A DNA stretch of 57,157 nt, from positions 1 to 57,157 of IMG/VR virus record IMGVR_UViG_3300028829_000632; one strand, 5' to 3'. Origin of the DNA: a virus. Positions 44,042-48,239 of the stretch are shown here, in pieces (positions within the stretch are counted from its first letter, which is position 1; each line of letters opens with the position of its first letter). The position numbers and the translations under genes are program-made. The notes below the pieces were generated by a model, which worked only from the letters and a program-made list of their open reading frames with translations, was not told the origin of the DNA and did no database searches.

Positions 44042-44257
44042 TTATTCCTCAGTCTTTAACGACCCTGTCAGCATATTGACAAAAGCAGATTTTCCAACTT
44101 CTAATTGATCTACATTAAATTTTGCAGCCGAAAGTTTACGTTCCAGATCAGCAATATGATTAACAATCATCTGCTGTTCCTCGGTCATGTCTTCATACTT
44201 ATATTCTACGTCGTCGATAATAATTGGGGTTTTTTCATTTTTTCCCATTTTTCCCAC
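44042..44257 (-). CDS. DUF6447-like small protein (71 aa)
   Basis: Pattern of a short beta start (IIIDDVEYKYEDMT), then a helix EEQQMIVNHIADLERKL and a final LEVGKSAF helix, as in the DUF6447 family of phage appendage regions. Met codons at 44257 and 44248 are both possible starts; the longer overlaps the next gene by 52 bases. Function unknown. Confidence 0.65.
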   Translation of the reverse strand: MGKMGKNEKTPIIIDDVEYKYEDMTEEQQMIVNHIADLERKLSAAKFNVDQLEVGKSAFVNMLTGSLKTEE

Positions 44258-44568
44258 GGGGTGCCACTACCCTCCGTAGGGTTTTCGATAAGCTGCAACT
44301 GAGCAGCCACGTTTGCTTCGATAGATGCAACCTCTTCAGCACCAAGAGCAGTCTTGGTCCACTCAAGAGCCTTTGCCTCAGTGATGTCGGCATATGGAAT
44401 AAAATCTGCAATGTCATCCGTTGGGATAGCGACAGAGCCATAGACCCTACCCTGATTACCAGCGTCATCTTCGTCAATGCACTGCCAGTGAGAATTGTTA
44501 ACCACGTCAGATTCGCCGTCGAGAGATACAGCGTAATCAAGCTGCACGATTGACCATGTAATTGCCAT
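44206..44568 (-). CDS. DUF7936-like protein (120 aa)
   Basis: Begins MAITWSIVQLDYAVS and has VNNSHWQCID, GSVAIPTDDI and ITEAKALEWTKTALG, the pattern of a small family common next to fibre genes in cyanophages and other marine phages. The C-terminal ~20 residues after GTPW are extra and overlap the next gene. Likely structural or fibre-associated. Confidence 0.7.
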   Translation of the reverse strand: MAITWSIVQLDYAVSLDGESDVVNNSHWQCIDEDDAGNQGRVYGSVAIPTDDIADFIPYADITEAKALEWTKTALGAEEVASIEANVAAQLQLIENPTEGSGTPWEKWEKMKKPQLLSTT

Positions 44569-44579
44569 TTGTTTGTTCC

Positions 44580-44735
44580 TTATCCTAATGGGTTCCAGCC
44601 CGAGTTATCCGGGTTGATTTGGTTAAGCCACGTTTCGCGCAGCTTTGGGTTTTCTTGCGTGTGTTCCTGCCACTGCCGTTCGCTGATTTGTCCGCTTCGA
44701 TAACAGGCGATGAGAAGTTCTTGCTCGGTCATCAT
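44580..44735 (-). CDS. Small fibre-linked protein (51 aa)
   Basis: Starts ATGATGA, overlapping the TGA that would end the original long fibre reading frame (44732-44734), so it was coupled to that frame. Polar, Gln/Trp-rich, ending NSGWNPLG. The same type of short gene after an S74 fibre is common; function unknown. ATG 44732 is an alternative start. Confidence 0.6.
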   Translation of the reverse strand: MMTEQELLIACYRSGQISERQWQEHTQENPKLRETWLNQINPDNSGWNPLG

Positions 44736-44898
44736 AACGCTGCGATCATAAATGCGAGGAGTTCATCGTACCGGATGCCGTAACGCTCACCAGCTTCGAT
44801 GCCCGGATTGATTACGTTGCCGTTTTTATCGACTTCTTCCGGCTCTGCTTCCCATGTATCGTGGCACAGCAGCGCATAGCGTGTGGCGTCAAGACCTT
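44732..44898 (-). pseudogene. Displaced C-terminus of fibre autochaperone domain
   Basis: About 55 codons (AEGLDATRYALLCHDTW... ending GIRYDELLAFMIAAL) complete the S74-type chaperone domain of the upstream fibre, but in a frame shifted by +1. It has no start codon of its own. The shift coincides with a tandem duplication GCAG GCAG (44906-44899) on the minus strand; removing one unit joins the two parts. Confidence 0.8.
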
Positions 44899-47800
44899 CT
44901 GCCTGCCGCAAATGCCGCGATAACTTCCTGTGCAATTACGCCGACATGGATTCGTGCATCGTCGCCTTTCAACGCTACTGCGTCGTTATATTTGTATTTT
45001 TTGACAAGACCCTTGATCGCCACGGCAACGCGACGTTCTGCGTCATCGAGATCGGCAATCTGCTGTTTTTCCCGCTCGTCAGATGTATTGATCGTTCCGG
45101 TTCCAGCATAAACAACCGACCAACGATTTGCAGCGGCTCCAAGGGGCTGTACGTTGTCAGTTGCTGGGCGGACAACGCCGTTATTGACGATTCTTAAACG
45201 CTCTATGTTATTAGTGCCGATTCGGACGTAGTCATTGAAGTCGTTCCAGATGTCAATGCCGTTCGTGTTGTTGCCGTAGCCGAGGTGACCAGTGGTGGCA
45301 CCACCATCCTGTGACAGCTCAATTCGAGCGTTGTCACTTTCGGTTACATTATCTGTGTCTGCTTCCAGCGTCAGGATTGCGTTTCCAGTTGATGCTAGAT
45401 GCAGGAGTGTGCTGGGTGACGCAGTCCCAATACCGACCCTGCCGGTGGGGGCGATACGCATAGTCTCAATGTTATCTTCCTTAAAAATAACACTGTTGCC
45501 GGTATCAATAGTGATTGGATAACCGCCTATAGTATGAAGCAATAACCCTACAGATGCTCTTGTGTCGTAGGGCAAAGAAATATCGCCATATGAAGTGCTG
45601 TTAGTAGTAAACGTCCAACGAAGTGCACCAGTTGTTCCCCCACCGCCAGACTTTAACTTGATGTCAGCGTTTGTAGCATCGAGAATAATGTTGCCAGTAA
45701 CCTCCAACTTTTCCGCAGGAGAAGTAGTGCCGATACCAACGTTACCCGCGCTGGTGATACGCATACGTTCTGAGGCATTAGTCGTAAACGACATAAAATC
45801 ACTAGCATGACTGTACCGAATGATTCCGATATTTACGTCGTCAAGATCACCAAAATAAATGTAGTTACTTTGACCATTGTCAGCGACTAGATTTTCAAAA
45901 ATAGTATCTGCGCCGCCACCCGTGTCTGAAGCTCTAAGACGTATATACGCATCTCCAGAGGCTTCCTCAACTTCAAAAAGTCGGTCAGGTGTCAAAGCAC
46001 CAATACCGACATTGCCGCTGCTGTCGATGATCATCCGAGTACTATTATTATACCCACGAATCTGAAGATCGTTTTCGCTAGTGTCATAGAACAGCCCCGC
46101 ACGTACAGTATCTGCAACATCGCCAAGATATATAGCGGCATCGCCGCCACTTGGGCCGATGGTAAGCGTTTCGGCAACCGTGCCATTTTGTCTAAACCGT
46201 AGACTTGATGATCCATCTAGGACGTGAAACTTAGTTGCTGGTGACGAAGTACCAATACCGACGTTACCCGATGAGTCGATACGCATACGTTCTGTACCAA
46301 TAGCAGTTTTGAATGTTAAAAACCCATTTGATTTATGCGTACCGACTTGTAGCTCATTATCATCATGCACCCATCTGATAATTGAACCGATATTATCGCT
46401 CGGACTTCCAAAAATTAAATTTGCTTGGTTATTATCTGGCGCAAGAATACTTATGCCCGTTGCCCCGTTTGTTTCGATAACGACATCGTCGGCGTTAGCC
46501 CAAGGACTAGCCCCAGAAGAACCTGATGCTACATTTAATTTACCACTTGGCGACGATGTACCAATACCGACCAGACCCGCGCTGGTGATATGTACTAGTT
46601 CGGAAGCTAATTTTGTATCTGTACTTGCATCTCCAGAGCGTATTTGAAAACCGTTTGCATCAACAAAAAACTGAAAATCTGTTGCAGAGCCGGAAAGGTC
46701 TTCAAGGACAATGTTTGGACGAAACTGCGAAACCAAAACATTAAAATTATCCGAAGCGCCTCCAGCCGGTTGAACGTGCAATGGTGCACGAGGAGCCGAA
46801 ATACCAATACCGACATTGCCGCCAATATTTACATCACCGCTTACTGATACGTCTCCATCAAATGTAATGTCACCTGTTGCAAAAATAGTACCGCCTACTG
46901 ATACATTGCCTGCTACATCAAGTGTGCTAGCCATTGTTGCAGCACCACTAACTCTAACAGTGCTTAAGAAACCTGTAGCACCTACTACTGTAACTGTACT
47001 TAATAAATTAGTAGCGCCACCAACACTCAAGGCACCGCCGATGCTCATTGCTCCAACAACTGTCGCAGTTCCGCCGACAACTAATCCAGCACTGATTGAA
47101 ACAGTACTATCAAATGTACCAGCACCTGTTACAAACAGTGTTCCGCCAACAGATGTGTTACCTGCTACATCCAATGTACCACCAACTGTGACATTAGATT
47201 TTAAAGCAGCAGCGCCTACTACAGTAACTGTAGATGCAAATGTTGCAGCACCTGTTTGAATTAATGTACCACCAATTGATGTGTTACCTGCTACATTAAG
47301 AGTACCACTGACTGATACATTACTATCAAATGTTGCAGCACCTGTTTGAATTAATGTACCGCCAATTGATGTGTTACCTACTACAGCTAGAGTACCACCA
47401 ACATTTAAAAATCCTGATATAGAAACACTATCTGGAAGTACACCTATAGAAGCTATAACACCAGTTAGATTAGTACCGTCACCATAGAAAGCAGAAGCAG
47501 TCACATTACCAACAACATTAAGCTTACCGCTGACAGATACATCAGCAGCAAAATTACTAATACCTGTTACATTTAAAACACTTCCTACTGAAACAGAAGA
47601 AGCAGTATCAATCCTACCGCTAACTGACACATCATTACTGAATGTAGACTTACTTGTAAAAGCAGCCGTACCAGTTACAGCTAACGTACCTCCAATAGAT
47701 ACATTTTCATTTACATCAAGCTGACCACTGACAGACACATCACCTTCTACAACAAGCTTCCCACCTACTGTAACATTACTGACAAAAGTTGCTACACCTG

Positions 47801-48239
47801 TTTGAGTTAGTGTGCCACCAAGAGACGCATTACCTGCTACATTTAAAGCACCACTTACAGATGTATCACCTTTTACAACTAAGCTACCACCAACATTAGC
47901 ACTGCCAGCTACAGTAATAGAATTGACAGAGATATCGCCACCAATACTAGCAGTTAAGCCCGTAAGATTAGAACCATCTCCAAAGAAAGCAGAAGCACAG
48001 ACTCTATCACTAACAACTAAATCATTAGTAATTGTTGCTGTACCGTTTACACGTAGAGCAGTTTCAACAACTACTTGATTTGTAGCTACTTTTAATGCAG
48101 TATTAGTACCATCACCAGTTTGAACAGCAACAATAGACGTGCCAACGCCTTCGTTAGTAGTGCTACTATTAATGAGCAATAACTGCTGATATGTTCCCGA
48201 AATTAATTTACCTGTTAAATCTGTCATATTAGTTGCCAA
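44889..48239 (-). CDS. Long tail fibre with S74-type autochaperone, frameshifted
   Basis: Seen: 1116 aa as read. Residues ~1-475 are a Val/Gly/Ser/Thr beta-solenoid of VSVGGTL-like repeats. From ~480, at least six GNVGIGTSSP-type units. Near residue ~1060, TSDEREKQQIADLDDAE and HVGVIAQEVIAAF are the start of a Peptidase_S74 intramolecular chaperone, whose Ser is the usual self-cleavage site. Then a 4-bp duplication throws the frame and it stops at 44889, about 55 residues early. Known: S74 domains trimerise the fibre and cut themselves off. The first half is AT-rich, the second GC-rich. Confidence 0.8.
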   Translation of the reverse strand: MATNMTDLTGKLISGTYQQLLLINSSTTNEGVGTSIVAVQTGDGTNTALKVATNQVVVETALRVNGTATITNDLVVSDRVCASAFFGDGSNLTGLTASIGGDISVNSITVAGSANVGGSLVVKGDTSVSGALNVAGNASLGGTLTQTGVATFVSNVTVGGKLVVEGDVSVSGQLDVNENVSIGGTLAVTGTAAFTSKSTFSNDVSVSGRIDTASSVSVGSVLNVTGISNFAADVSVSGKLNVVGNVTASAFYGDGTNLTGVIASIGVLPDSVSISGFLNVGGTLAVVGNTSIGGTLIQTGAATFDSNVSVSGTLNVAGNTSIGGTLIQTGAATFASTVTVVGAAALKSNVTVGGTLDVAGNTSVGGTLFVTGAGTFDSTVSISAGLVVGGTATVVGAMSIGGALSVGGATNLLSTVTVVGATGFLSTVRVSGAATMASTLDVAGNVSVGGTIFATGDITFDGDVSVSGDVNIGGNVGIGISAPRAPLHVQPAGGASDNFNVLVSQFRPNIVLEDLSGSATDFQFFVDANGFQIRSGDASTDTKLASELVHITSAGLVGIGTSSPSGKLNVASGSSGASPWANADDVVIETNGATGISILAPDNNQANLIFGSPSDNIGSIIRWVHDDNELQVGTHKSNGFLTFKTAIGTERMRIDSSGNVGIGTSSPATKFHVLDGSSSLRFRQNGTVAETLTIGPSGGDAAIYLGDVADTVRAGLFYDTSENDLQIRGYNNSTRMIIDSSGNVGIGALTPDRLFEVEEASGDAYIRLRASDTGGGADTIFENLVADNGQSNYIYFGDLDDVNIGIIRYSHASDFMSFTTNASERMRITSAGNVGIGTTSPAEKLEVTGNIILDATNADIKLKSGGGGTTGALRWTFTTNSTSYGDISLPYDTRASVGLLLHTIGGYPITIDTGNSVIFKEDNIETMRIAPTGRVGIGTASPSTLLHLASTGNAILTLEADTDNVTESDNARIELSQDGGATTGHLGYGNNTNGIDIWNDFNDYVRIGTNNIERLRIVNNGVVRPATDNVQPLGAAANRWSVVYAGTGTINTSDEREKQQIADLDDAERRVAVAIKGLVKKYKYNDAVALKGDDARIHVGVIAQEVIAAFAAGRRS
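47237..47381 (-). repeat. 90-bp direct repeat in fibre solenoid
   Basis: Bases from 47237 (about 53 bp) recur from 47327 with one mismatch, a 90-bp, 30-codon period encoding GNTSIGGTLIQTGAATF twice. It reflects internal duplication of solenoid rungs. Confidence 0.75.

Follow-up and report, generated by a model that had tools for sequence, protein, structure and literature searches.

A tandem four-base duplication divides the S74-type chaperone domain of a phage tail-fibre gene between two reading frames

The question raised by this locus is why a phage tail-fibre gene has its terminal chaperone domain spread over two reading frames, and whether the break belongs to the phage or to its record. 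The stretch of DNA analysed here (the window) comprises the 57,157 bases of a virus record from a tailed phage, with genes for a terminase, a portal, a major head protein, a primase/helicase, a DNA polymerase and a ribonucleotide reductase. In a preliminary description of the locus, GCAG was reported to occur twice in tandem at 44906-44899 and to shift the frame inside an S74-type domain, and both the description and its coordinates were right: read directly, the minus strand from 44912 to 44889 is TTTGCGGCAGGCAGAAGGTCTTGA. The features concerned are as follows.

44889..48239, minus strand: tail-fibre open reading frame (ORF) in its present form, 1116 amino acids from a TTG start, truncated within the S74 domain
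44901..45110, minus strand: first half of the Peptidase_S74 chaperone domain, still in frame and containing the TSDEREK Ser/Lys site (PF13884, E=1.6e-12; PDB matches 6eu4, 3gw6, 7y5s and 4uw8)
44899..44906, minus strand: tandem GCAG duplication GCAGGCAG, the exact inserted copy being ambiguous by a few bases
44889..44891, minus strand: premature TGA stop, shortly past the duplication
44732..44905, minus strand: second half of the S74 domain, out of frame and comprising the hairpin and the C-terminal helix (phrog_7121, tail fiber, E=9e-19)
44580..44735, minus strand: next small gene, 51 amino acids, sharing ATGA with the normal stop of the fibre gene

As it stands, the fibre ORF 48239-44889 ends in GVIAQEVIAAFAAGRRS followed by the stop codon. 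The rest of the domain had been said to run in the next frame and to end at the start of the following gene, which agrees with our reading: positions 44905-44735 translate to QAEGLDATRYALLCHDTWEAEPEEVDKNGNVINPGIEAGERYGIRYDELLAFMIAAL, beginning with QAEGLDATRYALLCHDTWEAEP and ending with RYGIRYDELLAFMIAAL, and the TGA stop at 44734-44732 forms a 4-nt ATGA overlap with the ATG of the next gene at 44735. The sequence GCAGGCAG occurs a single time in the whole window, at 44899-44906, and about 1.5 occurrences are expected per window of the same composition, so the repeat itself is unremarkable. The feature that is not due to chance is the division of one homologous domain between two frames, not the repeat as such. 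The idea that the second half is translated on its own was rejected; a TTG-started ORF of 67 amino acids exists at 44935, with no support for its use.

The domain is a frameshifted S74 autochaperone in a fibre, as had been claimed, with a PF13884 match in its first half and its second half out of frame. The in-frame half scored 48 bits against PF13884 in a profile search (cut-off 22), and in phrog_7121, an example of the PHROG tail-fibre families, the two halves match adjoining positions (788-855 and 854-908). The corresponding domain of an intact relative matches the solved chaperone domains 7y5s, 6eu4, 3gud, 9vvr, 4uw8 and 3gw6 by sequence, and its predicted fold (mean pLDDT 84.6) matches 3gud, 3gw6 and 4uw8. 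A protein search of phage GenBank records returned tail fibres and spikes only (best identity about 62%), and a DNA search of the same records returned no match. The window's domain thus resembles the Peptidase_S74 or endosialidase intramolecular chaperone (PF13884; PDB 3GUD, 3GW6, 4UW8) in its sequence family, its position at the fibre C-terminus, the Ser and Lys five residues apart at the cleavage site and, for the intact relative, the fold. It differs in being cut after the third helix, with the hairpin and the C-terminal helix out of frame.

The self-cleavage site is kept in the truncated protein. The S and K of TSDEREK are five residues apart in the window and both are invariant in 31 relatives; in pb1 of phage T5, the self-cleavage residues are Ser1264 and Lys1269 (PMC4690869). 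Placed on the model of the intact relative, the break lies at about domain residue 69, where helix 60-69 ends, and the elements lost beyond it are strands 80-85, 98-100 and 106-111 and helix 113-122. Many invariant or near-invariant positions are lost with them, including L72, Y77, C81, D83, W85, R112, Y113, E115, L116 and F119. The T5 pb1 counterparts of the lost elements are the hairpin tentacles (1332-1371) and the trimeric coiled-coil helix (1371-1394), which the Ser/Lys cleavage site precedes (PMC4690869). All relatives carry the hairpin and the C-terminal helix in the same chain, and the window does not. Because the break removes the hairpin, the C-terminal helix and conserved positions, a loss of function is expected: the truncated domain retains the Ser/Lys dyad and should not work.

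The 11 close relatives, contigs identical to the window over the 26 surrounding bases, carry a single GCAG copy each and are read without a break, with 84-96% DNA identity over the domain, and each half used as a separate query finds the same close contigs. In 80 of 80 viral S74 loci (56 distinct sequences), picked with the first half alone, the frame is kept into the second half, and it also continues past the break in all cellular (bacterial) loci (28/28). The preliminary description had suggested a comparison with relatives whose domain might work although it ends at the early stop codon, and none was found among these 80 viral and 28 cellular loci. The two-unit form was absent, under exact and codon-degenerate patterns, from a collection of viral contigs from which records very near the window may be missing. 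In the alignment, the second half of the window's domain had zero substitutions unshared with any relative, and the first half had few private substitutions, all of them synonymous. Because the conserved sequence can still be read in the lost half, with no sign of decay, the lesion should be either very recent or artificial. Judging from these alignments, it is private to this record among the relatives found.

A separate observation concerns the DNA around the duplication. About 80 bp (about 44850-44930, minus strand; columns 325-406 of alignment A1) are near-identical across relatives that are 12-13% different on the flanks, in a comparison set that carries some bias, having been chosen by an exact 26-base match within the block; 11 of the 12 nearest contigs of an unbiased protein search belong to this set. 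A nucleotide-level signal in the block was rejected as a candidate. Because synonymous positions vary freely in 55 broader relatives, the conservation of the block points to local homogenisation, not to a general element.

The explanation that we prefer, and to which we give an even chance, is a recent, private loss-of-function mutation of the fibre gene. Its observed basis is the broken frame together with the intactness of every relative found and the undecayed state of the lost half. About 21 kb of the window aligns to relatives, and the other recurrent net frame-affecting differences from close relatives are located only at gene boundaries or in intergenic DNA, so the contig is not generally indel-ridden. 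In such a mutation, a 4-bp tandem duplication would have arisen de novo in the fibre gene of one phage, probably by polymerase slippage or a small repair error. The truncated chaperone would keep the dyad and lack both the fibre-embracing hairpin and the C-terminal coiled-coil helix, and the fibre trimer may in consequence be misfolded or unmatured. Translation would stop about 155 nt before the overlapping next gene, which may then be translated less, and the carrier phage would be defective, reliant on other tail proteins or a minority genotype. A precedent is lambda, which loses its side tail fibres through stf frameshifts under selection, and in which such frameshifts were readily selected (15 of 21 isolates) (PMC2762979). 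The window resembles the stf frameshifts of lambda PaPa and of the experimentally selected mutants in that a small indel lies towards the 3' end of a fibre gene and is presumed to abolish function (PMC2762979). However, it involves another fibre in another phage, nearly all lambda indels are in short homonucleotide runs, and the phenotype and selection belong to lambda, whereas the window's case is read from sequence alone. The mutation also has points against it: an assembly artefact predicts an identical sequence, a contig consensus normally represents the majority genotype, and few majority genotypes would be expected to carry a broken fibre, and the near-identical block of about 80 bp around the lesion is where short-read assemblies are least reliable.

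Only slightly below an even chance, in our estimate, is that the gene is normal in the phage and that the extra four bases were made at contig joining or consensus calling, within the short block common to related phages. Such an artefact would fit the presence of the duplication in one record only and the lack of decay in the lost half. It would also fit the block, where relatives 12-13% apart on the flanks are 0.7% apart and which, if such phages occur together in one sample, would act as a repeat for short k-mers; the block is likely to be a recombination point as well as an assembly trouble spot. However, no other recurrent frame-breaking indel was found inside genes over the approximately 21 kb compared, the site is not a homopolymer, and the nearest relative is the same contig (L098) on both sides of the site, with no chimera visible there. 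This shared nearest relative speaks against a chimeric join at the very position of the duplication.

A fresh mutation, an assembly or sequencing error and a phase-variation switch had all been offered initially, and the first two both stand, as one-unit relatives fit either of them. The switch, in which gain or loss of a GCAG unit would turn fibre maturation off or on, is very unlikely. One copy gives a full domain in the relatives and two copies give a broken domain here, but two-copy tandem tetramers are at chance frequency in the window (195 observed against 177 expected, with a range of 145-199 in simulated sequence), and no tetramer array of three or more copies is present there. In addition, two units occur in no relative, the domain being intact in 108 of 108 relatives checked (80 viral and 28 cellular), and no length variants were found among them; all are in frame, and the close ones have one copy. 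Tetranucleotide-repeat phase variation in Haemophilus and Neisseria involves tracts with many copies and variable length. The window is similar in that a 4-bp unit alters the reading frame, but only two copies are present, and in a single record. Finding one metagenomic contig with a broken fibre is no evidence of a switch and matters little as biology; the phenomenon is ordinary, a one-off mutation or an assembly slip and not a switch. It is just as improbable that the population keeps both gene forms, the fraction of particles without mature fibre being a selected adsorption-rate polymorphism; coexistence of both forms would give the lambda stf adsorption trade-off a counterpart in nature.

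Least credible of all is programmed +1 frameshifting, in which ribosomes would slip at AGG TCT TGA C and make full-length fibre, loosely as in prfB (RF2): the Shine-Dalgarno-like AGAAGG upstream of the TGA-C stop and the intact, conserved downstream frame would suit it, but the same bases are ordinary in-frame EGLD codons in all close relatives and therefore are not selected as a signal, no conserved shift site was found, with no split and no shift in any of the 80 viral or 28 cellular loci, and the P-site codon and Shine-Dalgarno spacing of prfB are unlike those at this site.

The fibre gene also appears to be mosaic. Its C-terminal module and the two following genes (about 44147-45443) match another set of phages than the N-terminal part, and by these matches the module is derived from a different phage pool. 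The repetitive N-terminal part (46817-48239), with VSVGGTL-type repeats, is common to sister phages found via the neighbouring adaptor gene, and the fibre C-terminus differs among them. Two contigs (L101 and L105) are alike before the conserved block but not beyond it, a pattern suggesting a crossover point at which fibre ends are swapped. Compared with its relatives, the window is about 22-36 bp shorter at 44206-44257, where the DUF7936 gene meets the gene that follows; the usual stop of the DUF7936 gene and the Shine-Dalgarno sequence of the next gene are gone, and TGGGAAAAA occurs twice. This shortened junction, near 44250, is also where the imported module has its other edge. Finally, 148 bp at 44042-44189 are 100% identical to a sister contig (L113), compared with about 96% in the adaptor gene, suggesting a recent exchange.
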